This document shows positions 4,080 to 64,000 of a DNA stretch of 64,000 nt, one piece after another; positions within the stretch are counted from its first letter, which is position 1; every line of letters begins with the position of its first letter. The notes below the pieces were generated by a model. It was given only the letters and a program-made list of their open reading frames with translations, was not told the origin of the DNA and did not search any database. The position numbers and the translations under genes are program-made. This DNA comes from Marinobacter panjinensis (GTDB taxonomy: Bacteria; Pseudomonadota; Gammaproteobacteria; Pseudomonadales; Oleiphilaceae): positions 2,728,001 to 2,792,000 of the forward strand of contig NZ_SZYH01000001.1 in the NCBI RefSeq assembly GCF_005298175.1. Reading direction: 5' to 3'.

Positions 4080-4100
4080 TTAAGGGTTAATTTACGGGTA

Positions 4101-4970
<870 letters not shown>

Positions 4971-5445: not shown

Positions 5446-5474
5446 ATTATATGTGTTAACCGGTAGGTGTTCAA
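5446..5474 (-). promoter_or_regulatory. Probable sigma70 promoter of the atp operon
   Basis: On the minus strand TTGAAC is followed after exactly 17 bases by TATAAT, a near-consensus -35/-10 pair. It lies about 80 bases upstream of the atpI start, with no other gene between. Just upstream, at 5538-5550, is a short palindrome (ACACAA, G, TTGTGT) that could be an operator. No matching regulator was identified. Transcription start is predicted near 5439. Confidence 0.7.
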
Positions 5475-5624
5475 CAGAAGCGGCGGGAAAATTTGATGGA
5501 AAAATAGCCAGTTTTCACGGCATATCCCATCAATATCACACAAGTTGTGTTGTTAAACAATTCGGATCACGACATGTGGTGTTTTAGGGCCGTGTCAGTA
5601 CTTTCGCACTATCGACTAATGACA

Positions 5625-6497: not shown

Positions 6498-6548
6498 GGT
6501 ATTTGTCATTCTTCCCGATGAAACATCTGTGTGCAAAGGAGGGGTAGT

Positions 6549-7343: not shown

Positions 7344-7345
7344 GA

Positions 7346-8008
7346 CTAGCCTCCTGTCTTGAAATTCTTGTGGCCGGAATCCCGCCCGATCACCAGCAGG
7401 TGCCGGTCTCCGTCCGAGCCGGGTACCGATAACGAGTGCCGGGACTTTACCTGCCAACCCGATGGCAGTGCAGCCACCTCATCATCCGGAAACTGGCCTT
7501 TCATGGCAAGGAACTCGCCCTCATCCGCCAGCAAATGACCGCACCAGTCGACCAGGTTGTCCAGTGCCGTGAACGCCCGGCTGCTGATCTGCCGGTACTG
7601 AATGGCGGGATCACAGCTTTCTGCCCGACCATGAATAATATCCACGTTCTTCAGGCCCAGTTCCAGAACGCACTGGGTCAGGAACCGGGTTTTCTTGCTG
7701 TTACTGTCCAGCAGGGTAAAGCGCTTTTGGGGCAAGGCAATGGCCAGGGGAATGCCCGGCAGCCCGCCACCGGCGCCCACATCCAGCAGGTGATCGGCGG
7801 TGACGAAAGGCAGGATGCTCAGGCTGTCCAGCAACTGGCGCGACACCATCTCCCGCGGCTCCCGCACCGCGGTCAGGTTGTAAGCGCGGTTCCACTTGTT
7901 CAGCAAAGCCAGAAACGCCAGCAGCTGTTGCTGGCAGGCGTCATCAAGCTCCAGTTCAAGATCTGCCAGGCCCTGGGCAAGCTGGCGTTGCCAGAGTGCA
8001 TCGATCAT
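7346..8008 (-). CDS. rsmG: 16S rRNA (guanine(527)-N(7))-methyltransferase RsmG
   Basis: This SAM-dependent methyltransferase modifies G527 of 16S rRNA; its loss gives low-level streptomycin resistance in E. coli. The 220-residue protein has the conserved NKWNRAYNLTAVR region, the SAM-binding motif LLDVGAGGGLPGIPLAI (about residues 70-86) and the SRAFTALDNLV segment. The order mnmG-rsmG-parA-parB is the classical one near bacterial origins. Confidence 0.97.
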   Translation of the reverse strand: MIDALWQRQLAQGLADLELELDDACQQQLLAFLALLNKWNRAYNLTAVREPREMVSRQLLDSLSILPFVTADHLLDVGAGGGLPGIPLAIALPQKRFTLLDSNSKKTRFLTQCVLELGLKNVDIIHGRAESCDPAIQYRQISSRAFTALDNLVDWCGHLLADEGEFLAMKGQFPDDEVAALPSGWQVKSRHSLSVPGSDGDRHLLVIGRDSGHKNFKTGG

Positions 8009-8016
8009 GGTCGCAC

Positions 8017-9903: not shown

Positions 9904-9945
9904 AACATCACCTCGGCAAACGGGGTATCAAAAAATTCGGGGTAT

Positions 9946-9969
9946 AAAAAACAGCCTGAAAATCAGGGC
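9946..9969 (-). terminator. Terminator-like hairpin in the mnmG leader
   Basis: Read on the minus strand, a stem built from GCCCTGA and TCAGGC with a short T loop is followed by CTG and a run of six Ts. The arms carry one unpaired base. It could end transcripts arriving from the RND operon (stop at 10316) or attenuate mnmG transcription. A possible -10 element (TATACT, complement of 9974-9979) lies just upstream of it, so both readings remain open. Confidence 0.42.
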
Positions 9970-10168
9970 GGGGAGTATAACGCCTCACCCGGCAAATTGC
10001 AGTCAGAATGTGCAAATTTTAACCAGACTGGATGGCAGGGAAAACCCTGACCCGCCCCCTCAGATAGGTTCGAGGGTTCCACGTCACGTTTCACAGATGG
10101 GGGAAAATACGAAATCCGAAAAATTTCAGCGGCTTGTAGAACTCTTCTCAGAAAACTTTTCAAGAAAG

Positions 10169-10331
10169 TTATCCACATTCCCAGAGTGCCGTCAGAGGGC
10201 CTGAAACACCAATTAAGCGCTTGTTTTTAAAAGAGTGTTATAGTTTTAACCAGAGCTTATCCGAAGGTTATCCAATAATTTATCCACAACCTGTCCCGCT
10301 TCAGGCCCTGCACATTCAGAATTTATCCATC
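10169..10331. other. DnaA-box cluster upstream of mnmG (possible second origin element)
   Basis: Perfect 9-mer boxes TTATCCACA lie at 10169-10177 and 10280-10288. Relaxed boxes are TTATCCGAA (10257-10265), TTATCCAAT (10268-10276) and TTATCCATC (10323-10331, inside the 3' end of the pump gene). A moderately AT-rich stretch (10210-10250) lies between them. The position next to mnmG mirrors the E. coli oriC context. The rest of the 9904-10315 gap shows the mnmG leader hairpin, a half parS-like GTTCCACGT at 10076-10084, and no gene. Confidence 0.55.
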
Positions 10332-48586: not shown

Positions 48587-48668
48587 ATGTTGACGTGGCC
48601 CTGGGGATTTACCGCGCCGGAGTCCGGAGATTAAACGGTCGCAATCCTCGGCCAGGCGCGAATCGGCA

Positions 48669-49943
48669 CTAATCAAACCGCTGCGGACTGAAGGGCTTCA
48701 GGGGCACGGCCGTCTTTTCGCCATCGATCAGTTGGGCTGTCAGTTGCGCCGCGGCGGCAGAGAAGGTCCAGCCGAAGGTGCCATGACCAGTGTTGAGGTA
48801 AAGGTTCCGCTCCCGGCCGGCGCCGATTATCGGCGGGCCATCGGGGGTCATGGGCCGAAACCCCGTCCAGGCCTCGGCCGATTTCAGGTCGGCGGCGCCG
48901 GGGAAGCGCGAGTCGATGGCCTTGCGCAGAGTCGCGAGCCGGCGTTCGGGGATCTGCCGGTTGTAGCCGGCCAGCTCGACAAAGCCGGTCACCCGCATAC
49001 GGGTCCCCAAACGGGTGGCGGCGACCTTGTACAGGTCGTCGACAAGGGTCGACCGTGGGGCCCGTTCAGGGTCGATCAGGGGCGCGGTCAACGAATAGCC
49101 TTTGACCGGATAGCTGGGCACGCGTAAGCGAAAGTGGCTGGCGAACTCGTTGGAATCGGTCCCCGCACAGAGGACAAAGGCATCCGCAGCTAAAGACTCT
49201 CTGGGCGCACCGCTGGCGTTGGCGGCAAGAGTCAGTGCGCACAGCCGGCCCTGTTCACGGACAACACCAGTCACTTCTGTCTCATAAAGAAAGCGAACGC
49301 CCTCGGCTTCGCAGGCTTTCGCGATACCTTGGGTGAAGCGGTGGCAATCGCCAGTACCGTCTTCGGTCACCTGCAAGGCACCTTTGAGCGGTCCGCTGCG
49401 GGCCAGCCCAGGCTCGCACTCATAGGTTTCCTCAGGGTCGAGCAGTTGATGGGCAATGCCCATCTCATGGAGCAAGGCGGCCTTGGCCTGCAAGCCCTGT
49501 AAGCTCTCCTCACTGCTCGCTAGCTCAATCAGACCGCCGCGGTCGCCATCAAAGTCCAGCTCCAAGTTTTCCTCCAAAGACTGGAAACACTCGCGGCTGT
49601 AGGCGCCAAGTCTGAGCATTGCCCTTTTATTGGCATCGAAGAGGCCTGGAGTCATGGCGTAGCGCCAGGTCGCCACCAGAAAGCGCAGGGTCGCCAGGGA
49701 CGGCGGTATGTGCATCTTCAGCGGGCCATCCCGCTGCATCAGCCACGGCAGTGCCTTCTTAATCATGGCCGGCGAGGCCCAGGGGTATACGGAGCCATAG
49801 CTACGCTGTCCGGCGTTGGCCCGGCTGGTTTCCAGTCCCGCTTGACCCAGGCGTTCAATGACGGTGACTTTATGGCCACGCAGGCTAAGGGCTTGGGCGG
49901 TTGTGGCACCCACAACACCTGCGCCAATGACTGCTATGTGCAT
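48669..49943 (-). CDS. DadA-like FAD-dependent D-amino acid dehydrogenase
   Basis: The 424-residue flavoprotein starts MHIAVIGAGVVGATTAQALS, the FAD Rossmann motif. The segments NAGQRSYGSVYPWASP, YPVKGYSLT and EAWTGFRPMTPDGPPIIG are typical of DadA-type dehydrogenases that oxidise D-amino acids or cyclic imino acids to imines and pass electrons to the respiratory chain. It is the last gene of the cluster, 22 bases after the ornithine-cyclodeaminase-family gene. The RidA encoded two genes upstream would hydrolyse the imine product. The exact substrate is unknown. Confidence 0.88.
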   Translation of the reverse strand: MHIAVIGAGVVGATTAQALSLRGHKVTVIERLGQAGLETSRANAGQRSYGSVYPWASPAMIKKALPWLMQRDGPLKMHIPPSLATLRFLVATWRYAMTPGLFDANKRAMLRLGAYSRECFQSLEENLELDFDGDRGGLIELASSEESLQGLQAKAALLHEMGIAHQLLDPEETYECEPGLARSGPLKGALQVTEDGTGDCHRFTQGIAKACEAEGVRFLYETEVTGVVREQGRLCALTLAANASGAPRESLAADAFVLCAGTDSNEFASHFRLRVPSYPVKGYSLTAPLIDPERAPRSTLVDDLYKVAATRLGTRMRVTGFVELAGYNRQIPERRLATLRKAIDSRFPGAADLKSAEAWTGFRPMTPDGPPIIGAGRERNLYLNTGHGTFGWTFSAAAAQLTAQLIDGEKTAVPLKPFSPQRFD

Positions 49944-49965
49944 CGCGCTTGCTCCCGAATCACCA

Positions 49966-50907
49966 TCACGAGTCGCCACCCAGGCTTTGCCACACCTGGA
50001 TAGCGGCTGCCAGATCTTCCAGTGAAGCACCGACGGATTTGAACACGGTGATCGCCTCGTCGCTGCTGCGTCCTGCACGCTCACCGCGCAGTAGCTGCGA
50101 CATGTCGGCTCGAATATCGGAAAAATCGAATGCACCTTCGTCCACGGCCTGGAGAATGTCCCCAGCCTCGCCTTTAGCGCCGGCATGGGTGTCGACAAAG
50201 ACCTCGCCCCGGCGCAGGCAAGTCGCATCCGCTTCGCGCATGTTCGGCTTGAAGGCACCGACCAGATCGAGATGGCTGCCGGTCTTGAGCCAGGCGCCTT
50301 TGATAAGCGGGATGGAGGAAAGGGTGGCGCAACTGATGATGTCAGCCTGGGACGAAGCGGTTGCCAGGTCGGTTACTACCTGGGTGTCGAAACGGTCGGC
50401 ATAGTGCTCAGCCAAGGCTCGGGCCTTATCCGGGTTGCGTCCCCATATTCTGACCCGAGTGATCGGCCGGACGGCAGCATGGGCCTCGATCAGCATGGGC
50501 GCAAGCTTCCCGGTGCCGACCATAAGCAGGCTGGAGGCTTCTTTCCGGGCCAACTCCCTGCAGGCTAATGCCGAGGCTGCCGCTGTGCGCCGCCGGGTCA
50601 GCTCGCTGCCGTCCATGCAGGCCAGAGGCCGACCATGTGCGCCCTCGCTGAGCAGATAGACGCCAGAAATCGCAGGCAAACCATGGGCCGAATTCTGGGG
50701 AAATACATTGACCATTTTCACGCCGATGTAACCGCGCGCCTGCCAAGCCGGCATCAGCAGCATGGTTGCCTCGCCATCCTCCCGATTCATGCTGTGGTGA
50801 TGGCGCGGCGGTGCCTCCACACCGTCGCGAAAAGCCTCACCGATGCTGTCGATCAGTGCCGGCCACGACAACGCTTGGGCAACCTGTTCGGCGCTAATAA
50901 CACGCAT
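49966..50907 (-). CDS. Ornithine cyclodeaminase/mu-crystallin family protein
   Basis: The 313-residue NAD(P)-binding protein opens MRVISAEQVAQALSWPALID. It has the HHHSMNREDGEATMLLMPAW substrate region, a VGTGKLAPMLIEAH Rossmann motif (about 129-142) and DLVGAFKPNMREAD. Family members include ornithine cyclodeaminase, cyclic imino acid reductases, iminosuccinate reductase and the ectoine gene product EutC, so the reaction cannot be fixed from sequence. Next to RidA and DadA, reduction of an imine intermediate is plausible. Confidence 0.85.
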   Translation of the reverse strand: MRVISAEQVAQALSWPALIDSIGEAFRDGVEAPPRHHHSMNREDGEATMLLMPAWQARGYIGVKMVNVFPQNSAHGLPAISGVYLLSEGAHGRPLACMDGSELTRRRTAAASALACRELARKEASSLLMVGTGKLAPMLIEAHAAVRPITRVRIWGRNPDKARALAEHYADRFDTQVVTDLATASSQADIISCATLSSIPLIKGAWLKTGSHLDLVGAFKPNMREADATCLRRGEVFVDTHAGAKGEAGDILQAVDEGAFDFSDIRADMSQLLRGERAGRSSDEAITVFKSVGASLEDLAAAIQVWQSLGGDS

Positions 50908-50908
50908 C

Positions 50909-51265
50909 TCAAGTCTCCTGTAAGGCGGCGATCACCATGATCTCGACCTTCCATTCCGGCTTCGCCAGTTTGGATTCCACACAGGCGCGCACGGGAGGGC
51001 GGCCATCCACTACCCAGGCATCCCATGCGGCGTTCATTTCAGCGAACTCGGCCATGTCGGTTACCCATATGGTGGCCGACAGTAGGTGGGATTTGTCGGT
51101 GCCGGCCTTGGCCAGCATCTGGTCAATGCCCTGCAAAATCTGTTCAGTCTGGCCGCGCATGCCAGCGCTGGCATCCGCGGCTACCTGGCCAGCCAGATAG
51201 ACAGTATTCCCATGCACGACGGCCTGGCTCATTCGTTGGTTGCTGTCAATGTAACGATCGGTCAT
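50909..51265 (-). CDS. RidA-family enamine/imine deaminase
   Basis: The 118-residue protein has the YjgF/YER057c/UK114 fold, with the RPPVRACVESKLAKPEWKVE segment carrying the conserved arginine and glutamate. It hydrolyses reactive imino acids released by PLP enzymes or flavin dehydrogenases. The start is set at 51265 because AGGGTG lies six bases upstream; a GTG three codons earlier is possible. It sits one base from the ornithine-cyclodeaminase-family gene. Confidence 0.88.
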   Translation of the reverse strand: MTDRYIDSNQRMSQAVVHGNTVYLAGQVAADASAGMRGQTEQILQGIDQMLAKAGTDKSHLLSATIWVTDMAEFAEMNAAWDAWVVDGRPPVRACVESKLAKPEWKVEIMVIAALQET

Positions 51266-51305
51266 AAATTTCACCCTATTGGTTCGGAAAAAGACATTGA
51301 GGTGG

Positions 51306-52343
51306 TTAACCCCATTGAAAGCCCTTTAAAAAAGCGGCCAGATTATCACTGAGACTGTCGGTCGGGTATCCGCCCTCCTGAACAATCACTTTTGGACCTT
51401 TTACCTGGGCCAGGCGTTGCCCAATGCGGTAAAAGTCTTCGGTTTCCAGGGTCATTCCGGCCAGGGGGTCGTCCTTGTGAGCATCGAGCCCGAGCGCGAT
51501 GACAATAGCCTGGGGTTTGAACTCAGCCAGAGCAGACAACAGCTGTGACAGCGCCTGCAGGAACGCAATGCCATCTGCACCCAGAGGCAGCGGCATGTTG
51601 CAGTTATAGCCCTTGCCTTCGCCCGCCCCTACCTCTTGTGCTGCGCCCCAGTAAAATGGGTAGAAATCGGCAGGGTTGACATGCACCGAGCCCGTCCATA
51701 CATCGTCTCTTTCCCAGAAGATGTCCTGGGTGCCATTACCATGGTGCAAGTCGACATCGACGATGGCCACGCGATCGTAACGTTCACGCAAGACAGTTGC
51801 TGCCAATGCCGTATTATTCAAAAAACAGAAGCCTCCTGCCCGTTCCGGCCCGGCATGGTGGCCCGGTGGTCGGCACAAGGCGTAACTGACCGACTCGCCT
51901 TGGAGCACGGCATCAGCCGCGGCCTGAGCCGTCGTGGCGCTGGCGAGAATACCGGAGTAGCTACCTTCGTCCATCGGGCAGGCCATGTCGTGCATGTGCC
52001 AACCTGCCTGGCCCACGATATGCCGCGGGTAGAAACTGGCATGACCACAGGGGTGCACGTTGGGTGCAACGACATCGGAGGCTGCGGGCAAGGCTCGCCA
52101 GCGTTCGACGACGCCCTCCAGGAAAACAAGGTATCGGGTGGTATGAATGCGCTCGAGTCTGTCGAGCAACAGCGGATCACTGGCAAGCGGTGGCAGCAGA
52201 CTCAGGCTGGCGCCCGCAGCTTCAACCGCTTCTTTCAGTCGCTCGGCGCGCACCGGTTGCTCTGGCGACGGGGCGGGTTGTCCACGCAGAAAAAAAAGTT
52301 TGGGGGCATGGTTATTTTGTGTCTCATGATAAAAGCATTTCAC
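51306..52343 (-). CDS. HDAC-fold deacetylase, acetylpolyamine amidohydrolase-like
   Basis: The 345-residue zinc-dependent amidohydrolase is of the class II histone deacetylase type. The active-site histidines are His162-His163 (RPPGHHAG), the zinc ligands are Asp198 and His200 (DVDLHHGNGTQ) and Asp287 (LGLDAHKDDP), and the tyrosine lies in QEGGYPTD. Bacterial relatives remove acetyl groups from acetylated polyamines or small acetamido compounds. The start is GTG at 52343, which matches family N-termini. It follows the importer ATPase by ten bases, so the imported solute is probably the N-acetylated substrate or its precursor. Confidence 0.88.
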   Translation of the reverse strand: MKCFYHETQNNHAPKLFFLRGQPAPSPEQPVRAERLKEAVEAAGASLSLLPPLASDPLLLDRLERIHTTRYLVFLEGVVERWRALPAASDVVAPNVHPCGHASFYPRHIVGQAGWHMHDMACPMDEGSYSGILASATTAQAAADAVLQGESVSYALCRPPGHHAGPERAGGFCFLNNTALAATVLRERYDRVAIVDVDLHHGNGTQDIFWERDDVWTGSVHVNPADFYPFYWGAAQEVGAGEGKGYNCNMPLPLGADGIAFLQALSQLLSALAEFKPQAIVIALGLDAHKDDPLAGMTLETEDFYRIGQRLAQVKGPKVIVQEGGYPTDSLSDNLAAFLKGFQWG

Positions 52344-52353
52344 AGAGCACCGC

Positions 52354-53139
52354 CTAGTGGTTATTGCCGAGGTGTTTTTGCAGGAAGTTGCGCGTGCGTT
52401 CCTGGTCCGGGTTACTGAACAGTTTGTCCGGCGTGCACTCTTCAACCACAACACCGCCATCCATGAACAGGGCCCAGTCTGAAACATCCCGTGCAAAGCC
52501 CATTTCGTGAGTCACGATGAGCATGGTCATTTGCTCATCGGCGAGGCTACGCATTACCAGGTTTACTTCTTCGACCAGTTCCGGATCCAGGGCCGAGGTG
52601 GCTTCGTCAAACAACATCACCTTGGGTTTCATTGCCAATGCCCGGGCAATGGCGACGCGCTGTTTCTGACCACCCGACAACCAGTTCGGAAACACATCGG
52701 CTTTCTCGGCAAGGCCCACCCGTTCAAGCTGTTCCATGCCAAGGTCACGAGCGGTTTTATTATCCATGCCTTTGAGCTTGCGCGGTGCCAGGGTGACGTT
52801 ATCGATGGTCGACAGGTGCGGAAACAGATTGAAGTGCTGAAACACCATGCCCATGTTCTGGCGGATGTTGTTGATGTGCCGTTCAAAGGCAAGCCCTTTC
52901 ATGTCGGGCCGGTTAACCTGCACACCATCGAGCAGGATGATCCCTTCATCAATCACCTCCAGATGATTGACCGATCGCAGTAGCGTGCTTTTACCGGAAC
53001 CGGACGGACCAATGATGGAAATAATCTTACCGCGATTGACGGTCAGATCGATCCCTTTCAGAACTTCGAGGTCGCCAAAGCGCTTGTGCACATTGCGAAC
53101 TTCTACCATGGGTTTTTCTGCATTGTTTTCTGTGCTCAT
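52354..53139 (-). CDS. Polar amino acid ABC importer, ATPase subunit
   Basis: The 261-residue nucleotide-binding protein has Walker [15 protein letters not shown], signature [20 protein letters not shown] and Walker [20 protein letters not shown]. It is of the GlnQ/HisP group. It is co-directed with two permeases and a binding protein. The gap to the next permease is 38 bases. Confidence 0.92.
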
Positions 53140-53177
53140 AAATAAGCTCCAGTTTTATAATTCTGTACAGGGACGAT

Positions 53178-53831
53178 TCAGCGGCGATAGGCGGTCTGCC
53201 TTTCCAGCCATGCCTGACCCAGCTCCATGAGAATATTGATCACGTAATACATCATGGCGATAACAATAAAGAACTCGAACGGCCTGAATGACACACTGAT
53301 CGCATACTGGGAGGCATACACCAGTTCAGCCACACCGATTGCAGACAACACCGAGGTATCCTTAACCATTAAAATCATATTGTTGCCCAACTGGGGGATC
53401 GAGCGAATCAACGCCTGTGGCACAATAATGTACAAAATGGTGTTCCAATGCCCGAAGCCCAGTGACCGGGAGGCCTCATATTGCCCACCTGACACCGACT
53501 TGATGGTGGCGATGAAAATATCGGCATTGTAAGCCATGTAGTGAAAACCAAGCCCCAGGATGCCCACCACGATGGCCGGAATCAGGATCCATTCGCCCAA
53601 TCCAAAGTACAGGAAGTACAGTTGCAGCAGCAGCGGTGTCGTCATGAACAGCCAGATAAAAAAGCGTAACGGCCAACTCACTACCTTGTTGGTGTAGATG
53701 GATATCACCGCGACAATAAGCCCACCCACGATTGACATGAAGGCCACAACGATGGCTATCAAAGACGCCACGCCCACGCCTTTCAGCAAGGTTGGGAAGT
53801 AGGTAATAACGGGAGTAAAATCAAATTCCAT
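53178..53831 (-). CDS. Polar amino acid ABC importer, permease 1
   Basis: The 217-residue HisM/GlnP-type permease has about five membrane helices and the EAA loop (GQYEASRSLGFGHWNTILYI, about 122-141) that docks the ATPase. It pairs with the preceding permease as a heterodimer. Confidence 0.92.
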   Translation of the reverse strand: MEFDFTPVITYFPTLLKGVGVASLIAIVVAFMSIVGGLIVAVISIYTNKVVSWPLRFFIWLFMTTPLLLQLYFLYFGLGEWILIPAIVVGILGLGFHYMAYNADIFIATIKSVSGGQYEASRSLGFGHWNTILYIIVPQALIRSIPQLGNNMILMVKDTSVLSAIGVAELVYASQYAISVSFRPFEFFIVIAMMYYVINILMELGQAWLERQTAYRR

Positions 53832-53843
53832 CAGTGCTGCCTC

Positions 53844-54506
53844 CTATTGGGTGGTGTATCGGGTTGCGCGACGATAGGCCAACTCGATGATACCCATCAC
53901 CGCATAGATGATGACGATGTACATCAGGGCACTGAGGGCAAAAATTTCCAGCGGCTTATAGGTCGACCCAATCAGACGCTGCGCCTGATAAGTCAATTCA
54001 ACCACGGAGATAATGGAGACCAGTGAGGAGTTCTTGACAAGAACAATGGCCAGCACACCCACGGAACGAATCATCAGACTTGCCGCTTGCGGCAGCACAA
54101 TAAATACCATTGTCCGTACTTTGCCAAAACCCAATGATCGGGCGGCTTCGCTTTGCCCCTTGTCGACCGATTCAATGGAGCCGCGAATTGCCTCACTCAT
54201 ATAGGCGCCAATATTAAACGCCCCAACAACGACACCACAGGTGATGGGGTCTAGCCGCAAGCCGAGACTCGGGCCGCCATAAAACACCAGCAACAATTGC
54301 ACGAAATAGGGGGTCCCGCGAACCACACTGATATAACCGCGGGCAAACCAGCGGATAGGAGCGAAGCGGAAGGTCTGTAAAAACACCAGCCCACAGGCGA
54401 CAAAGAAGCCAAAGAAAATTGCACGGGAAGAAATATCGATCGTAACCCAGGCCGCCCTGATCAACAGAGGCGTAACCTCGACCATCAAGTCAAAATCCAT
54501 GGTCAA
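53844..54506 (-). CDS. Polar amino acid ABC importer, permease 2
   Basis: The 220-residue permease is paralogous to its neighbour. The EAA loop is GQSEAARSLGFGKVRTMVFI (about 118-137). It starts 12 bases before the other permease, and the pair forms the membrane channel. Confidence 0.92.
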   Translation of the reverse strand: MTMDFDLMVEVTPLLIRAAWVTIDISSRAIFFGFFVACGLVFLQTFRFAPIRWFARGYISVVRGTPYFVQLLLVFYGGPSLGLRLDPITCGVVVGAFNIGAYMSEAIRGSIESVDKGQSEAARSLGFGKVRTMVFIVLPQAASLMIRSVGVLAIVLVKNSSLVSIISVVELTYQAQRLIGSTYKPLEIFALSALMYIVIIYAVMGIIELAYRRATRYTTQ

Positions 54507-54616
54507 ACCCTTTTTGCTGTTATCGGTGACTCAACCTTCAAACGTCGAGCACAAGCGGCAGGTGTCACGGGAGGGCTCGTTACAACCAGTGCAGAGAGCC
54601 CGCCCGTAATCAGCCC

Positions 54617-55420
54617 TTACTCGATATTGACACCTTTGCCAATCCACTTGTCGACGATGTCCTGGTAAGTCCCATCTGCCTTGATTTCGGCCAGAGCAGC
54701 ATTGAGGGCTGCCTTCAGTTCGGGTTTGTTCTTCTGAATTGAGATCGCTGCGGGCCAGCGTGGCAGTTCACCGACGTCGACCATTTTTATAGGGAGTTCG
54801 TTCTCCTGCATCGCGACCAGAACCGGTACGTCATCAGCAATCATGGCATCAACGCGGCCTGTGGTCAGAGCGTTCATCATGTCAGGCAAGCCCTGGAAGG
54901 TCTGATTGCGCCATTTACCTTCGCCATTTTCGACCGCCCACTGGTTACCGGTTTCGCCCAGGGTGGAACCAACCTGCTTACCGGAGAGGTCGCCGATACT
55001 ACTGATATCATCCGTGCTTTCCTGTACCCAGACTGAAAGGCCTGCGCTGTAGTACGGGTCGGTAAAATCAACCGCTTTCTTGCGCTCTTCAGTGACGCTC
55101 ATGCTGCAAATGCATGCATCAAAGCGGCCACCCGCCAGGGCAGCAATAATGCCGTTCCAGGGGGATGATTGAATGTTAACCTCCACACCCATTTTTTCAG
55201 CCAGCGCCTCGGCAATGTCAACGTCGAAGCCCACTAGTTCACCCTGAGTGTTAACATAGCTGAAGGGAGGGTAGGCGCCGGAGTTGGCTACCTGAAAGAC
55301 GTCATCGCGAATTTCAGGCAGGTCACGCGCTTGGGTCGGCATTGCCACCATCGCTGTTGCACCAATAACCACGGCTGCGGCCGCCAGAGTTTGTGAAAAC
55401 TTTTTTGTAAGTGTCTTCAT
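54617..55420 (-). CDS. Polar amino acid ABC importer, periplasmic substrate-binding protein
   Basis: The 267-residue type II binding protein (SBP_bac_3) has a signal peptide (KKFSQTLAAAAVVIGATAMV, cleavage after about residue 31). The ligand-binding fold shows GFDVDIAEALAEKMGVEVNI and KKAVDFTDPYYSAGLSV. The family binds lysine, arginine, ornithine, glutamine and similar solutes. A 110-base gap follows it, and an unusual palindrome lies just upstream. Confidence 0.92.
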   Translation of the reverse strand: MKTLTKKFSQTLAAAAVVIGATAMVAMPTQARDLPEIRDDVFQVANSGAYPPFSYVNTQGELVGFDVDIAEALAEKMGVEVNIQSSPWNGIIAALAGGRFDACICSMSVTEERKKAVDFTDPYYSAGLSVWVQESTDDISSIGDLSGKQVGSTLGETGNQWAVENGEGKWRNQTFQGLPDMMNALTTGRVDAMIADDVPVLVAMQENELPIKMVDVGELPRWPAAISIQKNKPELKAALNAALAEIKADGTYQDIVDKWIGKGVNIE

Positions 55421-55450
55421 ATCCTTATTCCTGTTCAGACTTTATTAAAA

Positions 55451-55464
55451 CAATGCATGCATTG
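55451..55464. promoter_or_regulatory. Perfect 14-bp palindrome upstream of the binding-protein gene
   Basis: CAATGCATGCATTG is self-complementary. It is followed at once by an overlapping ATGCATTG copy (55464-55473). It lies 31 bases upstream of the binding-protein start. The CAATGCAT half recurs in the LysR-aminotransferase intergenic region (59558-59565). A shared operator is inferred. Confidence 0.5.
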
Positions 55465-55634
55465 ATGCATTGCACCTCTTCACATTGGTCAATGACCGTA
55501 CCTGTTGAGCTAGGATTGATTGTTGTCATCCATCCAGATTAATTGTTGTTTTGGCTCTCATGGTTGTTTCCTTGGTCACCTCTTACCAATATATTTTAGG
55601 GTTGCTTTACTCAAACACAGCGAGGCCATGCAGC

Positions 55635-56816
55635 TCAGACTCGTTCAATTAACAGGGCAATGCCCTGGCCACCGCCAATGCAGGCTGCGGCCACGCCGTA
55701 TCGGCCCTTCGTCACTTGCAGTGACCGCGCCAGGGTACCTGCCAGGCGAACCCCGGTTGCGCCCAGTGGGTGGCCAATGGCCAATGCGCCACCGTTTATG
55801 TTCAATTTTTTATCGTCAATGCCCAGTATTTGCCGGGCATACAGTGGCACAACGCTGAAGGCTTCGTTGATTTCCCACAGATCGATGTCATCGACAGTCA
55901 GCTGGTTTTGCATCAGCAACCGTTCTACAGCGGGCACGACACCCTGCCCCATCATTTCCGGCCTGGTGCCACGATCTACACAGGCCAGTACGCGCGCCAG
56001 CGGTGTCGCACCCGTCTCGTCAAGGGCTCCTTCAGACATCAACATCGCCAGCGAAGCGCCGCTGGTTAACGGCGAGCTATTGCCAGCGGTGATGTCGCCG
56101 GTCTCACTGAAGGCCGGTGACAGTTGTGCCAGCGCTTCAACCTGAGTGTCGGGGCGTATGCAGGCATCCTGTGAAAACGGATCCGACTCTGATGCAGTTA
56201 CCGGCATAATCTCGTCGGTAAAAAAACCCTGTTGCCGGGCAGCGTGGGCTCGCTGGTGCGAGCGACAGGCAAAGGCATCCATCTGCTCTCGGCTGATACC
56301 TGATGCTGTCGCCAACCGCTCTGCTGTCAAGCCCATGTTCAGCGCGACCGCCATATCATAGGTTTTGCCGTTACTAACAGGCAGTGTCGGCACACCCAAA
56401 ACGCCTTCCTTGAACAGGGCAGGCCCCATGGGTACACGCGTCATATGTTCATAGCCACCGGCCAGCGCTATGTCGGCAGCGCCGCACCCAATAGACATCA
56501 TGCCAAAGCGTAGTGCAGTGAGGCTGGAACCGCATTGTTGATCAATCATTCGCGTGGCGGCCTGGTCTCCCAGTTGACTTTGCATCAGCGGGTAACGCCC
56601 GCCGAAACTCCACTGTTCTTTTACGCCCAGAGCACAGCCCAGACTAAGATCATCAACCCGCTCAGGCGCAATGCCCGACGTTTCAAGGCTGTGATCAATC
56701 AGCAGCGCCATGAGTCGATCAGCAGGCCAGTCAGCCAGCGCATCAACGACAACTTTTTTCGGATGCGCCCGGCTGAACGCGGTGCGCTGGTAATGGGTCA
56801 GATAAACAGGCTTCAT
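55635..56816 (-). CDS. Thiolase family acyltransferase
   Basis: The 393-residue condensing/cleaving enzyme has nucleophile Cys95 (DQQCGSSLTAL), a His in GHPLGATGVR, and the second Cys in CIGGGQGIALLIERV. It cleaves 3-ketoacyl-CoA with CoA to acetyl-CoA and a shortened acyl-CoA. It overlaps the preceding CoA-transferase subunit by four bases (ATGA), so the two enzymes probably act in sequence. The 214 bases downstream hold the importer promoter region. Confidence 0.93.
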   Translation of the reverse strand: MKPVYLTHYQRTAFSRAHPKKVVVDALADWPADRLMALLIDHSLETSGIAPERVDDLSLGCALGVKEQWSFGGRYPLMQSQLGDQAATRMIDQQCGSSLTALRFGMMSIGCGAADIALAGGYEHMTRVPMGPALFKEGVLGVPTLPVSNGKTYDMAVALNMGLTAERLATASGISREQMDAFACRSHQRAHAARQQGFFTDEIMPVTASESDPFSQDACIRPDTQVEALAQLSPAFSETGDITAGNSSPLTSGASLAMLMSEGALDETGATPLARVLACVDRGTRPEMMGQGVVPAVERLLMQNQLTVDDIDLWEINEAFSVVPLYARQILGIDDKKLNINGGALAIGHPLGATGVRLAGTLARSLQVTKGRYGVAAACIGGGQGIALLIERV

Positions 56817-57460
56817 AGTGCCTTTCCCTCGATCGCGAAGGTCAGTTCTGCTTCAGTCAGCGCCTGTAAGTCGACATTGCTGATGTCGACCAGTTTTTCC
56901 CGCACTACCAGGCCCTGGTCGGTAACGTCGATTACAGCAAGGTCTGAAATGATTCGACTGACACAAGCTTTGGCAGTGAGCGGCAGCCGGCAGGTCTCAA
57001 GTATTTTGGGGAGTCCGTGTTTGTCGGTATGCGTGGTTAGCACGACGATCCGCTTTGTTTTTTGCGCCAGCTCCATGGCGCCACCTATACCCGGTGAGAA
57101 CTTGCCCGGAATTTTCCAGTTGGCGAGGTTACCGTGCGCGTCGACCTCGAAAGCGCCGATCATCGTCAGGTCCAGACGGGCCCGACGAATCATCGCGAAG
57201 GAGACGGCGCTGTCGAACAGGCTCGCGCCTTCGCGCAAAGAGACGTAGGCGCCGGAGGCGTCAATAAGAAAAGGGTCCATCGATTCCGGTTCAGCCTGTT
57301 TCCAGGCACAGAGAATGCCATTCTCCGAATGAATCTGGACATCAAAGTCATCCGGCAGGTAATGCATGACCTGCGTTGGCAGACCAATGCCCAGATTGAC
57401 GATGCTGCCCGGGGTGATCTCGATCACCGCCCTGCTCAAAATTCGTTCAACGGCGGACAT
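56813..57460 (-). CDS. CoA-transferase family I, subunit B
   Basis: The 215-residue subunit carries the catalytic glutamate (Glu46, in VQIHSENGIL) that forms the glutamyl-CoA thioester. The start MSAVERILSRAVIEITPGS was chosen over an in-frame upstream start that lies inside subunit A. It overlaps subunit A by 14 bases and the thiolase by four. Relatives transfer CoA to acetoacetate, 3-oxoadipate and similar 3-keto acids. Confidence 0.92.
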   Translation of the reverse strand: MSAVERILSRAVIEITPGSIVNLGIGLPTQVMHYLPDDFDVQIHSENGILCAWKQAEPESMDPFLIDASGAYVSLREGASLFDSAVSFAMIRRARLDLTMIGAFEVDAHGNLANWKIPGKFSPGIGGAMELAQKTKRIVVLTTHTDKHGLPKILETCRLPLTAKACVSRIISDLAVIDVTDQGLVVREKLVDISNVDLQALTEAELTFAIEGKAL

Positions 57461-58142
57461 GATGCTCCAGAATTCCGTAGTCTGAGGTGAGTGATTCCAG
57501 CCGTACGACGCAGTCGACAAAGGCGCCCGGTGTGTGCACGTGTTCAGGTTTGAAACGCCCGGGTGCGCCCAGGTCCGGTGTTTCGACAATCACGTGGTTC
57601 GCCGCCATGGCCATTAACGGGCTGAAGTTAATGGCCGAGCCCTGATACACCAGGTTGCCCAGCCAGTCGGCCTGAGCAGCATGAATAAGAGCAAAATCGG
57701 CTGGCAATGCCATTTCCACTTTGTAGGTTTTGCCCTGCCAGTCGAGCAGATCATCAGGCCGGGTGATCTCGGAATCCATACCAATATCGGTCAGGAACCC
57801 AAAGCTGCCGGAACCGGCGGTGCGGATCTTTTCCGCCAGCATGCCCTGGGGGTGAAACTCCACGTCTATATCGCCCCGGTTCAAATGATCGATCACGACT
57901 TTATTCAGGCCAATGTGAGTGGTGATCAGCTTACGCACCTGACCATTCTCAATCAGTCGACTCACACCGTGGCCGGCTTCGTTGGCATCGTTTTTGATGA
58001 GCGTAAGATCGGTTTGCCCCTGGCGCAGTAATTCATCGATCAAACTGAATGGCGTGCCCGGGTTGCCGAAACCACCGACCATGACCACTGCGCCTGAAGG
58101 GATGGTAGCGATGGCGTTTTCCAGGGTGCGGTTCTTTTTCAT
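57447..58142 (-). CDS. CoA-transferase family I, subunit A
   Basis: The 231-residue partner subunit has the glycine-rich oxyanion loop VGGFGNPGTPFSLIDELLRQ (about 22-41) and the FNPQ-like region represented by FHPQGMLAEKIR. It starts two bases after the aminotransferase stop. Its coupling with an aminotransferase and a thiolase suggests a 3-keto acid substrate. Confidence 0.92.
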   Translation of the reverse strand: MKKNRTLENAIATIPSGAVVMVGGFGNPGTPFSLIDELLRQGQTDLTLIKNDANEAGHGVSRLIENGQVRKLITTHIGLNKVVIDHLNRGDIDVEFHPQGMLAEKIRTAGSGSFGFLTDIGMDSEITRPDDLLDWQGKTYKVEMALPADFALIHAAQADWLGNLVYQGSAINFSPLMAMAANHVIVETPDLGAPGRFKPEHVHTPGAFVDCVVRLESLTSDYGILEHHVRR

Positions 58143-58144
58143 GA

Positions 58145-59479
58145 TCAGGCCGCCTGCTCTTTTGCGACCTGTTCGAAGTCAGCCAGACTGCCATCGAAAA
58201 GTGCAATAATGTCGTCGATATCTGCGGCGGTAACGGTCAACGGCGGCGTGACCAGAACATGATCCCCCTCAAGGCCGTTCAGGCAGCGCCTTGGGTAGAT
58301 CAGCAAGCCCCGCGCCTTGGCCAGCGCGGTGAGCCTATCGAAGGCGTTGAACGCAGCGGGGAAAGGTTGCTTGCTGACCTTGTCTTGCACCAACTCCACA
58401 CCCTGCAACAGGCCAATACCGCGCACATTGCCTATGCAATCGTATTTCTCGGCCAGCTGTTCGAGTTGCCGGCGCAAATAGGCGCCTTGCTCAGCGGCAT
58501 TGCTGACCAGCTTCTCCGAGTTCATTACCTCAATCACGGCAAGGCCGGTGGCACAGGCGAGCGGATTCCCGGCATAGGTATGACCATGCATAAAGCCTCC
58601 GCTTCGGCCCACTGCATCCACGAGTTCCCTGGTCGCCATCATGGCGGCAATGGGGTAATAGCCGGAGCCCATGCCCTTTGCCAGTGCCAGAATGTCGGGG
58701 GCTACGCCATAGTGCTGGTAAGCAAACCAGGCACCGGTGCGGCCCATACCACTGAGCACTTCGTCCATGATCAACAGGCAACCGTAGCGGTCACACAGGG
58801 CGCGCATTCCTTCCATGTAAGTCCGGGTGACCATACGGCCACCAGTGCTGGCACCGCCAACCGGCTCAAGCACAATGGCTGCGATGGTTTCCGGGCCCTC
58901 CGCTAGAATGGCGATTTCAGTCTGTCTCAGCACCGCTGCAATATGTTCTTCAACGCTCGATTCGCGGTAACGATACAGGTCTGGCGAGGGCACCTTGACT
59001 GAGCCAATGGTGATCGAGCGGTAGGGCGCTTCCAGAGGTTCGTACCCGGTTAGCCCCAGTGCGCCCATGGTGCTGCCGTGATACGACGGGCGCAGCGATA
59101 CAAACTTGCTACGTTCAGGCTGACCTTCGGCAACGAAATACTGAATCGCCAACTTGATCGCGCTCTCGACTGCTTCCGAACCACTGCCGACAAAAAAGAC
59201 TTTCTGCAGATCAGCGTCAGTCAGGTCAACCATTTTATTAGCCAGATCCAGTGCAACCTGGCTTTCAAACTGAGTGCGGTAGCTGAACGAAACCTTATCG
59301 AGTTGCTCGATCATGGCTCGTTTTACGGTGGGATGATTGTGGCCAATATTGCAGGTGATGGCTCCCGAGCACCCATCGATGTAACGACGCCCCGTGGTAT
59401 CCCAGATATAAATGCCATCGGCATGGCTGACCAGAGGCATGTCATTACTGGTCAGATAAAACAAAGCACTGTTGGACAT
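58145..59479 (-). CDS. Class-III PLP-dependent aminotransferase
   Basis: The 444-residue enzyme has Asp239 (IMDEVLSGMGRTG), PLP lysine Lys268 (LALAKGMGSGYYP) and the GSGSEAVESAIKLAIQY cofactor loop. It differs from gabT at 34.6 kb, so the two are not recent duplicates. The family acts on terminal or beta amino groups. As the first gene of the cluster, just before a CoA-transferase and thiolase, it probably makes a 3-keto acid from a 3-amino acid. An in-frame TTG at 59503 is a possible longer start. Confidence 0.9.
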   Translation of the reverse strand: MSNSALFYLTSNDMPLVSHADGIYIWDTTGRRYIDGCSGAITCNIGHNHPTVKRAMIEQLDKVSFSYRTQFESQVALDLANKMVDLTDADLQKVFFVGSGSEAVESAIKLAIQYFVAEGQPERSKFVSLRPSYHGSTMGALGLTGYEPLEAPYRSITIGSVKVPSPDLYRYRESSVEEHIAAVLRQTEIAILAEGPETIAAIVLEPVGGASTGGRMVTRTYMEGMRALCDRYGCLLIMDEVLSGMGRTGAWFAYQHYGVAPDILALAKGMGSGYYPIAAMMATRELVDAVGRSGGFMHGHTYAGNPLACATGLAVIEVMNSEKLVSNAAEQGAYLRRQLEQLAEKYDCIGNVRGIGLLQGVELVQDKVSKQPFPAAFNAFDRLTALAKARGLLIYPRRCLNGLEGDHVLVTPPLTVTAADIDDIIALFDGSLADFEQVAKEQAA

Positions 59480-59562
59480 GAGGTCGTCGATCCTTTGGGG
59501 CAAAACGATGTTTTTTTGAACGATTCCGCATTATAGGAACAGATAAAAATTAACTTCAATGC

Positions 59563-59580
59563 ATAATGTTTTTTCATTAT
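59563..59580. promoter_or_regulatory. LysR-type operator candidate between aminotransferase and regulator
   Basis: ATAATG and CATTAT form a perfect inverted repeat with a T6 spacer, which also contains a T-N11-A arrangement typical of LysR-type sites. The 156-base gap is much more AT-rich than its surroundings. It starts two bases inside the CAATGCAT motif shared with the importer promoter. Confidence 0.55.
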
Positions 59581-59635
59581 TTAATGATTTAAACTCATGT
59601 TTTAGCTCCGAAAGACGTCCACGAGGCCTGCCATC

Positions 59636-60562
59636 ATGAGTGAGATTAAACTTACTTCTTTGAAATCAATGATTATTTTTAAAACACTTTATGAGACGGG
59701 CAGCGCCACACAAACAGCAAAAGATTTGGGTATAACCCAGTCGGGCGTCAGTCGGTCACTGGCGCAGTTGGAAGAACATATTGGCATTGCGCTGTTCATG
59801 CGACACAAAAAACGACTGATTGTTCTGCCCGAGGCCGATGAGTTCTATGGTGAAGTTGTGGGGTTACTGGGTAATCTGGAAAACATGAATCACAGCATCG
59901 CTGCGCTAAGGGAATTTGGCGCTTCGCGCATACGCATCGCCTGTGCACCCGGTCTCGGTTTTGCCTATATACCCAAAACCATCGCCCGTGTTCTGAGCGA
60001 CAACCCGAAGTACAGTGTGTATCTCGATATTATGCCCAGCCCGGAGATAGTGCGTGCGGTTGAAGCCGGTTATTTTGATGTCGGATTCGTCACCCTGCCG
60101 GTGACCAGCCAGGCCCTGGTGGTGGATGAATTGATCTCAACCGAAGCGGTCTGCCTGCTGCCAAAAAACCACAGCCTGGCCAAAGCCAGTGTGATTACCA
60201 CAGAAGATCTGAAAGGCCAGCATCTGGTTATCCCCAACCAGCCCAACCTGGCAGCCGACCAGCTACTACTTCACCTGGCGGAAAAAAACATACGCATTGC
60301 CGGTAAAACCGAAGCCAACATCGCAGCTATATGCTCACTGGTTGCCAATGGCGTCGGCATCACACTGATCAACCCCATCACGGCCTATGACAATCAGGCA
60401 ATGCGCGATGACCTCTCGATCAAACCGTTCAAGCCTGCCTTTCATTATCGTTTTGGACTGGTGTACAAACAGAAATGGGCGAATAACCGGTTAATCAGCT
60501 TGCTCAAGGAGATGCTGCCGGAGTTGCCGGATCACCTGGTAGCAGAACGGCTTAAACCCTAA
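59636..60562 (+). CDS. LysR-family transcriptional regulator of the catabolic cluster
   Basis: The 308-residue regulator has an N-terminal winged helix (GSATQTAKDLGITQSGVSRS, about 22-41) and a C-terminal effector domain of the periplasmic-binding fold. It is divergent from the aminotransferase gene, the classical LysR arrangement. It probably controls the aminotransferase-CoA-transferase-thiolase operon, with the substrate or a breakdown product as inducer (inference). Confidence 0.92.
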   Translation: MSEIKLTSLKSMIIFKTLYETGSATQTAKDLGITQSGVSRSLAQLEEHIGIALFMRHKKRLIVLPEADEFYGEVVGLLGNLENMNHSIAALREFGASRIRIACAPGLGFAYIPKTIARVLSDNPKYSVYLDIMPSPEIVRAVEAGYFDVGFVTLPVTSQALVVDELISTEAVCLLPKNHSLAKASVITTEDLKGQHLVIPNQPNLAADQLLLHLAEKNIRIAGKTEANIAAICSLVANGVGITLINPITAYDNQAMRDDLSIKPFKPAFHYRFGLVYKQKWANNRLISLLKEMLPELPDHLVAERLKP

Positions 60563-60731
60563 CCCGAAGCTGAAAAGAGCCTACGGAGCCACGAAGGCGA
60601 AGTGGAAAGGGCACGATAGACCCGCTGCAGGGCCAAACGTCGTTTAGAAGCGAGTATGACGTTGTACAATGGACGGCTGGTGTTCAACTGAGCAGAAGTT
60701 GCTGAAGCAGGGAGTAATAAATGCGGGAAAG

Positions 60732-60773
60732 TGGTCGGCGTGGCAGGATTCGAACCTGCGACCCCTTCGTCCC
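60732..60773 (-). tRNA. 3' fragment of tRNA-Pro, probable attachment-site duplicate
   Basis: Read on the minus strand, the fragment contains the 3' side of the anticodon stem (CGAAG), the T arm (GCAGG, TTCGAAT, CCTGC), the acceptor 3' strand (CACGCCG), discriminator A and an encoded CCA. The anticodon-side sequence is close to E. coli proline tRNA with anticodon CGG. Upstream of it no 5' half is present. Such a remnant is the usual trace of an element integrated in a tRNA gene. Confidence 0.75.
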
Positions 60774-60795
60774 AATAGAAAGCCACTTGGCGAAC

Positions 60796-60824
60796 TTGCC
60801 CACGCAAAAACAGCAACCTACACT
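60796..60824 (+). promoter_or_regulatory. Possible promoter of the antitoxin gene
   Basis: TTGCCC and TACACT are separated by 17 bases. The last base of the -10 element is the first base of the 9-bp repeat array, so a repeat-binding protein would block initiation. Confidence 0.4.
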
Positions 60825-60859
60825 GCATGCATTGTATGCATTGTATGCATTGTATGCAT
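60824..60859 (+). repeat. Four 9-bp tandem repeats before the antitoxin gene
   Basis: The array is TGCATGCAT followed by three identical copies of TGTATGCAT. It ends directly at the AGGAGG ribosome site of the antitoxin. It may be an operator array for the ribbon-helix-helix protein, or a copy-number-variable spacer. Confidence 0.85.
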
Positions 60860-60873
60860 AGGAGGCCAACGCA

Positions 60874-61056
60874 ATGGCGATGCTGACTGTTCGCAATCTA
60901 CCCGAAGAAGTCCATAAGGCTCTGCGTGTGAAAGCAGCCATCAACGGCCGCAGTATGGAAGCAGAGGCCCGAGCGATTCTGAAGAATGCTGTGCTGGCCG
61001 ATGACCCGAGCCGACCTGCTGAGGCGGTCACCAGCGAAATGGTCAAAGCTCAGTAG
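60874..61056 (+). CDS. FitA-like ribbon-helix-helix antitoxin
   Basis: The 60-residue protein starts MAMLTVRNLPEEVHKALRVK and continues AAINGRSMEAEARAILKNAV, the FitA/VapB-type Arc-fold DNA-binding pattern. An AGGAGG ribosome site lies eight bases upstream. Normally a PIN-domain toxin (FitB/VapC) follows. Here the next 83 bases hold no gene and then a helicase begins, so the toxin appears to be missing. Confidence 0.82.
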   Translation: MAMLTVRNLPEEVHKALRVKAAINGRSMEAEARAILKNAVLADDPSRPAEAVTSEMVKAQ

Positions 61057-61139
61057 CATTATGCTCGTCCGTCCAAAAAGACGGGCCTTCTAAGTAAAAA
61101 ACAATAAACCAGGCCGGCATGCCCATAGGAGGGCAGACT

Positions 61140-64000
61140 TTGGAAATGATCGACAACATCAACCGCCTGCTGGGTGACGATCTGAAAGAAACGATCACAC
61201 CAGGTGCCCGCCTGAAAATCGCGGCTTCATGTTTCTCTATCTATGCATTCGAGGCACTCAAGGCCGAGCTGGCTGATGTGGAAAGCCTGCAGTTCGTGTT
61301 CACCGCGCCTACGTTTGTACCCACCGAAGTGACCGATCGCCTTAAAAAAGAGCGTCGGGAATTCTTTATCCCCAAATCCCAGCGTGAGAGCGGACTTTAC
61401 GGCACCGAGTTTGAAATCCAGCTGCGCAACAAGCTAACTCAGCGGGCGGTAGCGCGGGAGTGCGCTCAGTGGATACGCCAAAAAGCCAGGTTCCGCTCGA
61501 ATAAAACGAAGGCCCCCATGCAGTCCTTTGTCCATGTGGCCGGGGGTGATAGCCGTGTCGCCTATATGCCGGTCAATGGTTTTACCGCCGTGGATCTGGG
61601 TTACCAGCAAGGCAACGCTGTCTCCAACTTCGTTACCCGCATGGACGAGCCGGCCCACGCGCAAATGTACCTTCAATTATTCGACCAAATCTGGAGTGAC
61701 CCCGATAAGGTTGAGGACGTTACTAATGCCATTTGCGACCACATCGAGTCTGTCTACCAGGAGAACGGTCCCGAGCGTATCTACTTCATCATGCTCTACA
61801 ACATCTTCCATGACTTCCTGGAAGATGTAGATGAAGACGTGTTGCCCAACGACCTCACGGGATACCGGGAAAGCCTGGTCTGGAACAAACTGTTCAACTA
61901 CCAGAAAGATGCCGCAACCGGGATTATCAACAAGCTGGAAACCTACAGCGGCTGCATCCTTGCTGATAGTGTGGGGCTCGGCAAAACCTTTACCGCATTG
62001 GCCGTCGTCAAATATTACGAGCTGCGCAACAAATCGGTATTGGTACTGTGCCCAAAGAAGCTCGCGGACAACTGGCGCAACTTCAACAGCAATCTCACAA
62101 CGAACATCTTCGCCAAAGACCGCTTCAACTACGATGTGCTTTGCCACACCGACCTGTCGCGCACTGGCGGGGAATCCTTTGGCATTCCCTTGAACCGGGT
62201 CAACTGGGGCAACTACGACCTGGTCGTCATCGACGAGTCCCACAACTTCCGCAATAACGACGTTTATAAAGACCGGGAAACGCGATACCAGAAGCTGATG
62301 AACAAAGTCATCCGCGCCGGTGTAAAAACCAAAGTGCTGATGCTGTCAGCTACCCCGGTTAACAATCGCTTCAATGATCTGCGCAATCAACTGGCTTTGG
62401 CCTACGAGGGTCAGTCAGAAACACTTGGCAAACACCTAAAAACTGAAACCAGCGTAGAAGAGATCTTCCGTCGGGCTCAAAAGGCATTTAACGAGTGGTC
62501 CGCACTGCCACCGGAAGAGCGCACGGCAGCCACAATCCTGCGGGCTCTGGATTTCGACTTTTTCGAGCTCCTGGATAGCGTCACCATTGCCCGGTCACGG
62601 AAGCACATCCAGACCTTCTATGACACCACGGATATCGGGCCATTTCCGGAACGTCGAAAGCCATTATCGTTTCATTGTCCGATTACTGAGCGCACGGATG
62701 TCGCCGACCTCAACCATATTTTCACCGAGCTGTCCCTGCTCAAGCTGGCCGTGTATGCGCCCATTAGCTACATCCTGCCAAGCCGTATCCGCAAATACGA
62801 AGAACTGTACGACACCCAGGTCGAGGGCGGTAAAGGCAAGCTTCGCCAGGCTGATCGCGAACACAGCCTGCAGGCATTGATGACAACCAATCTCCTTAAG
62901 CGGTTGGAAAGCTCTGTCGCAGCCTTTCGATTAACGCTGGCATCCCTCAGAGCCAATATCACCCGCACCCTGGATGCTATAGAGGGGTTTGAGTCCAGTG
63001 GCCAGGCGATTCAGATTGGTGACTACCTGGATAACCCGGGCGGCTTTGATAGTGATGACGAAGATCTGAGCGGGCTGGACGAATTCACTGTCGGCAAAAA
63101 AGTACAGATCAGCCTCGCCGACATGGATCTGCCCTCCTGGCGCCATGACCTGGATGCCGATCTGCTCCTGATCGACGGGCTGCTGGAAGCCATGCGCAAA
63201 GTGACGCCGGCCGATGACGCCAAGCTCCAACACCTGCTAAAACTGATCAATGATAAGCTCGAAAATCCACTCAACCCCGGCAACCGCAAAGTTCTGATCT
63301 TCACCGCCTTTGCCGATACCGCCGACTATCTCTATGACAACCTGGCCCCCATGGCCCGGAAATTGGGGCTTCACGTCGGTAAAGTGACCGGATCGGCCGC
63401 GCCCAAGTCAACGCTGCACAAGGCCTACGATTTCCAGAGTCTGCTCACCCTGTTCTCGCCCCGCTCCAAGGAGAAGGCTATCGCACTCCCGAACGAGCCG
63501 GCTGAACTGGATATTCTGATTGGTACCGACTGCATTTCCGAAGGCCAGAACCTTCAGGACTGCGATTACCTGATCAACTACGACATTCACTGGAACCCCG
63601 TGCGCATTATCCAGCGCTTTGGCCGGATTGACCGCATCGGCTCGCCCAACCAGCAGATACAGCTGGTCAATTACTGGCCGGACATCAGCCTGGATGAGTA
63701 CATCAACCTCAAAGAGCGGGTGGAAAACCGCATGGTGATTGCGGATGTAACCGCCACCGGTGACGATAACGTGCTTACGGCCAAGTCCAGTGAAATTGCT
63801 TACCGGAAAGAGCAGCTCAAACGCATGCAGGAGGAAGTGATTGAACTGGAAGACGTCAAAGCCGGTGTGTCGATTACCGACCTGGGCCTCAATGACTTCC
63901 GCATGGACCTACTCAACTACGTGAAAGAGCACGGCGAGCTGGAAAACGTGCCCTTCGGCATGCACGCCCTTGTGCCAGCCCAACCGCAACTAGGCATAGA
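61140..64000 (+). CDS. SNF2-family helicase with PLD-like N-terminus (cut by window edge)
   Basis: At least 953 residues are visible and the frame is open at the window end. The N-terminal 120 residues resemble phospholipase D-like domains of helicases (IAASCFSIYAFEALKAELAD). Motif I is ADSVGLGKT (about 275), motif II DESH (about 365), motif III LSATPVNN, motif V GTDCISEGQNLQDCDYLINY (about 795) and motif VI QRFGRIDRIG (about 825). All are intact. Such proteins are common in defence islands. AGGAGGG lies six bases before the TTG at 61140; ATG at 61146 is an alternative. Confidence 0.88.
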   Translation, partial: MEMIDNINRLLGDDLKETITPGARLKIAASCFSIYAFEALKAELADVESLQFVFTAPTFVPTEVTDRLKKERREFFIPKSQRESGLYGTEFEIQLRNKLTQRAVARECAQWIRQKARFRSNKTKAPMQSFVHVAGGDSRVAYMPVNGFTAVDLGYQQGNAVSNFVTRMDEPAHAQMYLQLFDQIWSDPDKVEDVTNAICDHIESVYQENGPERIYFIMLYNIFHDFLEDVDEDVLPNDLTGYRESLVWNKLFNYQKDAATGIINKLETYSGCILADSVGLGKTFTALAVVKYYELRNKSVLVLCPKKLADNWRNFNSNLTTNIFAKDRFNYDVLCHTDLSRTGGESFGIPLNRVNWGNYDLVVIDESHNFRNNDVYKDRETRYQKLMNKVIRAGVKTKVLMLSATPVNNRFNDLRNQLALAYEGQSETLGKHLKTETSVEEIFRRAQKAFNEWSALPPEERTAATILRALDFDFFELLDSVTIARSRKHIQTFYDTTDIGPFPERRKPLSFHCPITERTDVADLNHIFTELSLLKLAVYAPISYILPSRIRKYEELYDTQVEGGKGKLRQADREHSLQALMTTNLLKRLESSVAAFRLTLASLRANITRTLDAIEGFESSGQAIQIGDYLDNPGGFDSDDEDLSGLDEFTVGKKVQISLADMDLPSWRHDLDADLLLIDGLLEAMRKVTPADDAKLQHLLKLINDKLENPLNPGNRKVLIFTAFADTADYLYDNLAPMARKLGLHVGKVTGSAAPKSTLHKAYDFQSLLTLFSPRSKEKAIALPNEPAELDILIGTDCISEGQNLQDCDYLINYDIHWNPVRIIQRFGRIDRIGSPNQQIQLVNYWPDISLDEYINLKERVENRMVIADVTATGDDNVLTAKSSEIAYRKEQLKRMQEEVIELEDVKAGVSITDLGLNDFRMDLLNYVKEHGELENVPFGMHALVPAQPQLGI

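Follow-up and report, generated by a model that had tools for sequence, protein, structure and literature searches.

The 3' fragment of a proline tRNA gene found in the 64-kb stretch of DNA analysed here (C1:2728001-2792000 of the 4.42-Mb genome; hereafter the window) is very probably the edge of an island integrated at tRNA-Pro(CGG), which now lacks its integrase and persists as a locked-in deletion derivative. We established directly both ends of the island, the native flank outside it, homologous complete elements in relatives, which segment is missing and precisely where the junction lies, and the absence of an integrase. With the integrase lost and a deletion endpoint within the att core, the island would most likely be unable to excise by itself; a foreign integrase might still excise it in trans. 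The features are listed in Table 1.

On the minus strand the remnant reads GGGACGAAGGGGTCGCAGGTTCGAATCCTGCCACGCCGACCA, 42 nt of tRNA-Pro(CGG) corresponding to tRNA positions 35-76, from the second anticodon base to the encoded CCA. The original prediction of a 3' portion running to CCA held, but the fragment begins slightly 5' of the anticodon stem from which it had been thought to start, inside the anticodon loop. No complete tRNA was detected by ARAGORN in the 64-kb window, and an Rfam scan of 59900-61500 gave no match. Exactly one other copy in the genome matches the remnant at 42 of 42 positions, on the same strand at C1:2805138-2805179, where it forms the 3' portion of an intact tRNA-Pro gene with anticodon CGG (C1:2805138-2805214, minus strand); the chance of such a 42-base exact match in a genome of this kind would be of the order of 10^-18. 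An intact minus-strand gene sharing these 42 bases had been expected outside the window, and it was found 16.4 kb to the right, separated from the remnant by 16,364 bp. Its neighbours, ORFs recognised by eye, are presumably glyS and glyQ. The 5' side of the remnant points to higher coordinates, where the element had been placed and where the island indeed lies between remnant and intact tRNA, and the antitoxin-like and helicase genes that had been assigned to the element are both inside it.

Outside the remnant, the DNA starts CTTTCCCGC, as it does after tRNA-Pro in island-free Marinobacter, which supports the reading of the remnant as the left edge of a tRNA-Pro island. The tRNA-Pro 3' sequence was present with at most 3 mismatches in all 36 congeners of the relatives search, and for 35 of these the DNA beyond CCA was read as well. 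In many of the 35 it starts with (C/T)TTTCCCGC or a near-identical sequence, and in most the native flank follows tRNA-Pro directly, that is, the insert is absent. The comparison with relatives lacking the island, which had been proposed beforehand, thus revealed uninterrupted tRNA-Pro sites. The genome G036 aligns with positions 60627-60773 over 148 bp at 80%, tRNA part included, and in G023 the native sequence resumes 44 bp after the tRNA. A strict empty site, with tRNA-Pro joined directly to the LysR flank of our genome, was not found in the relatives read.

Table 1 Features of the island and its edges. Positions are those of the window; window-equivalent positions continue its numbering to the right, and L011 denotes a locus with its own numbering.
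Feature	Position	Strand	Basis
Native chromosomal flank, once directly 3' of tRNA-Pro	60627..60731	.	Starts CTTTCCCGC like island-free relatives
tRNA-Pro(CGG) 3' remnant, 42 bp (attR core), island left edge	60732..60773	-	Exact match to intact gene
Deletion junction	60770..60774	.	Interior CTTTCTATT (higher coordinates) joined to att core GGGACGAAGG; overlap GGGA, 4 bp
ATGCATTGT-type direct repeats	60825..60859	+	Just upstream of FitA-like gene; read directly
FitA-like ribbon-helix-helix protein, 60 aa	60874..61056	+	PF22513, E 2.9e-20
SNF2-type helicase, 1097 aa	61119..64000, on to window-equivalent 64412	+	PF00271, PF00176
ORFs without assigned function	window-equivalent 70921-72533 and 73270-76441		
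AlpA-type gene	L011:12745-12969	-	
Intact tRNA-Pro(CGG)	window-equivalent 77138-77214 = L011:17138-17214	-	Exact 42-base match to remnant

The G+C content of the island is 50.1%, compared with 56.4% for the window. From the remnant rightwards, its cargo consists of genes for the FitA-like ribbon-helix-helix protein, the SNF2-type helicase, a DUF4391 protein, a type III Mod and a type III Res; beyond Res lie two ORFs without assigned function, the AlpA-type gene and then more such ORFs. The helicase is the first large gene of an operon that continues through DUF4391 and Mod to Res and ends at window-equivalent 70644, and the PADLOC models HKD+Snf2 (E 4.4e-121), MTase_III (E 1.7e-180) and REase_III (E 0) were matched. 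As in type III restriction-modification (RM) systems, the genes for the Mod methyltransferase and the Res helicase-nuclease are adjacent, and both match type III models of PADLOC along almost their entire length; unlike such systems, this operon adds the SNF2-type helicase, the DUF4391 protein and the FitA-like protein. The system probably still restricts incoming DNA. No PIN-type toxin gene was recognised next to the FitA-like gene in the ORF list, and the FitA-like protein, encoded directly upstream of the restriction operon, is possibly its regulator. In the alignment, the ATGCATTGT-type repeats comprise two more units here (18 bp longer) than in the relatives G084 and G123, and they could be an operator of the FitA-like gene with variable copy number.

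At the other end of the island, the DNA adjoining the intact tRNA consists of GATTTCAACGACTTAGGGCGC, a terminator-like hairpin with a T run, and then GGCTGGGTACAGGTTGGGTACA, and it is unlike the native flank. This element-end pattern matches 12 of 124 Marinobacter genomes, and the named matches all belong to Marinobacter (for example M. azerbaijanicus, M. gelidimuriae, M. guineae, M. maritimus and strain ELB17). In a few genomes (such as G124, G025 and G004), the gene that comes after the short terminator end appears to be a resident one, and the terminator end may be the normal tRNA-Pro flank elsewhere in the genus and the source from which the element took it. Tandem copies of the tRNA-Pro 3' fragment together with this terminator end occur in Marinobacter sp. 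ELB17 (L084:2513-6622) and in M. gelidimuriae (L086 and L114), which suggests stacked insertions at tRNA-Pro. Viral contigs were considered as a source of a helper element or a phage attP with the same end and gave no match.

Complete elements were found in G064, G084 and G123, where an intact tRNA-Pro with the same arm is paired with a 45-bp remnant, TTCGGGACGAAG to CCA, at distances of 16.5, 26.5 and 26.8 kb, respectively. In all three, an integrase of 453-455 aa is encoded about 220 bp inside the remnant, with 83-89% identity among them. Its domains, Arm-DNA-bind_3, Phage_int_M and Phage_integrase, are those of P4-type integrases; PF13356, PF22022 and PF00589 all scored above cut-off in G084 and G123, and PF22022 was at its cut-off in G064. 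TGGGTAC repeats are present at both ends of the complete elements. The restriction operon is common to G084 and G123, two of the three complete relatives. Compared with these two, Res is 96% identical, the helicase 97-98%, and two ORFs without assigned function 94-99%, whereas Mod is more diverged. The type III methyltransferase at L011:5181-7229 shows 50-67% aligned identity to those of G084 and G123, against 96-98% for Res and helicase, and this high divergence is as expected if target-recognition regions had been swapped. The element of G064 carries instead an EcoRII-like type II system, made up of an EcoRII-C nuclease, an AAA protein and two cytosine methylases. An island with the same tRNA-Pro end in G072 (L108, about 756-10291) has genes for PglX and BrxL and one that is AbiU-like; the stretch read there covers the tRNA end, not the distal end. 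In several other genomes with the element end, its vicinity showed no integrase match.

An integrase had been predicted at the right end of the island, beside the intact tRNA. A six-frame search of the genome for Phage_integrase (PF00589) gave six matches, none of them in the island, at that end or elsewhere, and a homologue of the lost integrase was found neither in the island nor at these six tyrosine-recombinase matches. The position was also wrong, as the integrase of the complete relatives adjoins the remnant, at the end that lies inside the window and has been deleted here. One tyrosine recombinase of the genome is split into two Phage_integrase matches (G000:C1:3076684-3077077) and is possibly the broken integrase of another element.

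Alignment of the island with that of G084 (92.6% over the last 4.8 kb) continues up to the remnant itself, and this endpoint of colinearity is interior in G084, whose own remnant follows 7.1 kb further on. The island is thus colinear with its relative up to the interior point CTATTGGGA and then passes into the anticodon-loop core of attR, GGGACGAAGG. The junction was defined by a three-way comparison of our genome (CTTTCTATTGGGACGAAGG), the G084 interior (CTTTCTATTGGGAAGGCGGG) and the G084 remnant end (GCCTTCGGGACGAAGG). About 7.1 kb is missing at the remnant end, including the integrase gene and the distal arm-type repeats; in G084, the corresponding segment encodes the integrase, a ParS/MbcA-type antitoxin-domain protein and a PLD-domain protein. 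Two TGGGTAC repeats at the tRNA end are kept here and the distal ones are gone, and the remnant retains 42 of the 45 bp of the core. In the printed sequences inspected, G084 and G123 are alike beyond the junction point, indicating that the short form is derived. From these other species, we infer an ancestor that would have carried an integrase.

These findings are best explained by the following course of events. An integrative island would have entered tRNA-Pro(CGG) with a crossover at the anticodon loop, which is among the subsites used for crossover by the integrases of tRNA islands (PMC4383910). Its entry would have displaced the tRNA 3' end as the 42-bp fragment, and the island's own copy of the 3' half, with the terminator, would have restored the tRNA at the other end. 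In its complete form, as seen in the three relatives, the element has its P4-type tyrosine integrase some 220 bp away from the remnant, and its restriction-modification cargo varies from element to element. About 7.1 kb at the remnant end would then have been deleted together with the integrase and the distal arm-type repeats.

How the deletion arose can be read in two ways, between which the chances are about even. The integrase may have deleted its own gene through recombination between the attR core and a pseudo-att site in the interior (CTATTGGGAAGG), a reading to which we give somewhat less than an even chance. In its favour, of about 7.1 kb it is the 7-bp anticodon-loop core that contains the distal breakpoint, and the interior partner ATTGGGA agrees with the core sequence TTCGGGA in 5 of 7 bases. 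However, over the 22-bp core site the resemblance of the pseudo-site is weak, at 12 of 22 positions, a score attained at 78 of 26,338 positions of the G084 element, and the breakpoint position is partly ascertained, as a deletion that removed the remnant would have escaped notice. If the integrase did make the deletion, a mobile defence island would have become a fixed chromosomal one in a single site-specific step. Alternatively, the deletion may have arisen with no part played by the integrase, through illegitimate recombination at the GGGA microhomology, which comes close to being an even bet. Deletions of this type are common, and the 4-base GGGA overlap at the junction fits this reading, but a random endpoint would rarely hit the att core exactly.

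Two further explanations concern the island itself. The integrase-less cassette might not be fixed but be mobile in trans through a helper integrase, like CIMEs or satellites; the element ends with no integrase match nearby in several other genomes and the tandem copies would agree with this. We consider it improbable, as the complete elements bring their own integrase, the arm-type repeats are gone from the remnant end in question, and a homologous integrase was not found in the same genome. A partial tRNA sequence standing alone in the window might suggest a chance or degenerate tRNA copy that has nothing to do with an island, yet this is refuted by the relatives, in which independent complete elements share the same ends, and the 100% identity, the sharp start in the anticodon loop, the native 3' flank and the correct orientation leave it hardly any probability. 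The fixed, integrase-less deletion derivative thus remains the preferred reading.

The architecture resembles that of Islander-type islands, with an intact tDNA at one end, a displaced 3' fragment in the same orientation at the other, and a crossover in the anticodon-loop (A) subsite (PMC4383910). The insert flanked by gene and fragment is absent from most relatives; it contains no integrase, unlike Islander-type islands, so that the Islander integrase filter would reject it, while the complete relatives would pass. Cis-mobilizable elements (CIMEs) are integrated elements that have lost their integration gene and kept recognisable ends (PMC5704250). The present island likewise lacks the integration gene and has recognisable ends, and relatives have tandem copies, but its remnant-side site lacks the arm-type repeats and 3 of the 45 core bases. 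Since that site is also without arms, we named the island a fixed deletion derivative rather than filing it as a CIME. Among the proteins scanned, which for the relatives cover part of the ORFs, no relaxase or conjugation family was found; nor were conjugation genes recognised in the complete relatives, so that an ICE or IME is at most a possible ancestor. Islands with P4-type integrases are similar in the integrase domain set of the relatives and in the AlpA-type gene kept here, but differ in that phage or satellite structural genes were not recognised. Identity to the relatives' integrase is about 24% for the phage integrases listed and stays below 30% for the best-listed phage and plasmid integrases.

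The island is ordinary in kind, and its junction is unusually clean. It offers a base-precise view, before and after, of a mobile anti-phage island turning fixed in the chromosome. Defence cargo at the tRNA-Pro(CGG) site in Marinobacter varies by species (type III RM, EcoRII-like type II, and a PglX and BrxL set), and surveys that demand an integrase would overlook such islands. The architecture is already well known, so the general interest is modest.

A further difference between genomes adjoins the native flank. Past tRNA-Pro, the sequences of G007 and G023 rejoin our window at about 48.6 kb, and the cluster of LysR, aminotransferase, CoA-transferase, thiolase and ABC-transporter genes at about 48600-60570 (to 60.6 kb) is missing from their tRNA-Pro site. 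The LysR relatives that were read as candidates for this cluster beside an empty tRNA-Pro had no tRNA-Pro sequence within about 1.5 kb, the closest among the loci read being that of G095 (94%). No third tRNA remnant or att repeat was found near 48.6 kb, the left end of the cluster. The LysR cluster seems to reflect an event of its own, in which this spot underwent a second lineage-specific insertion or rearrangement.
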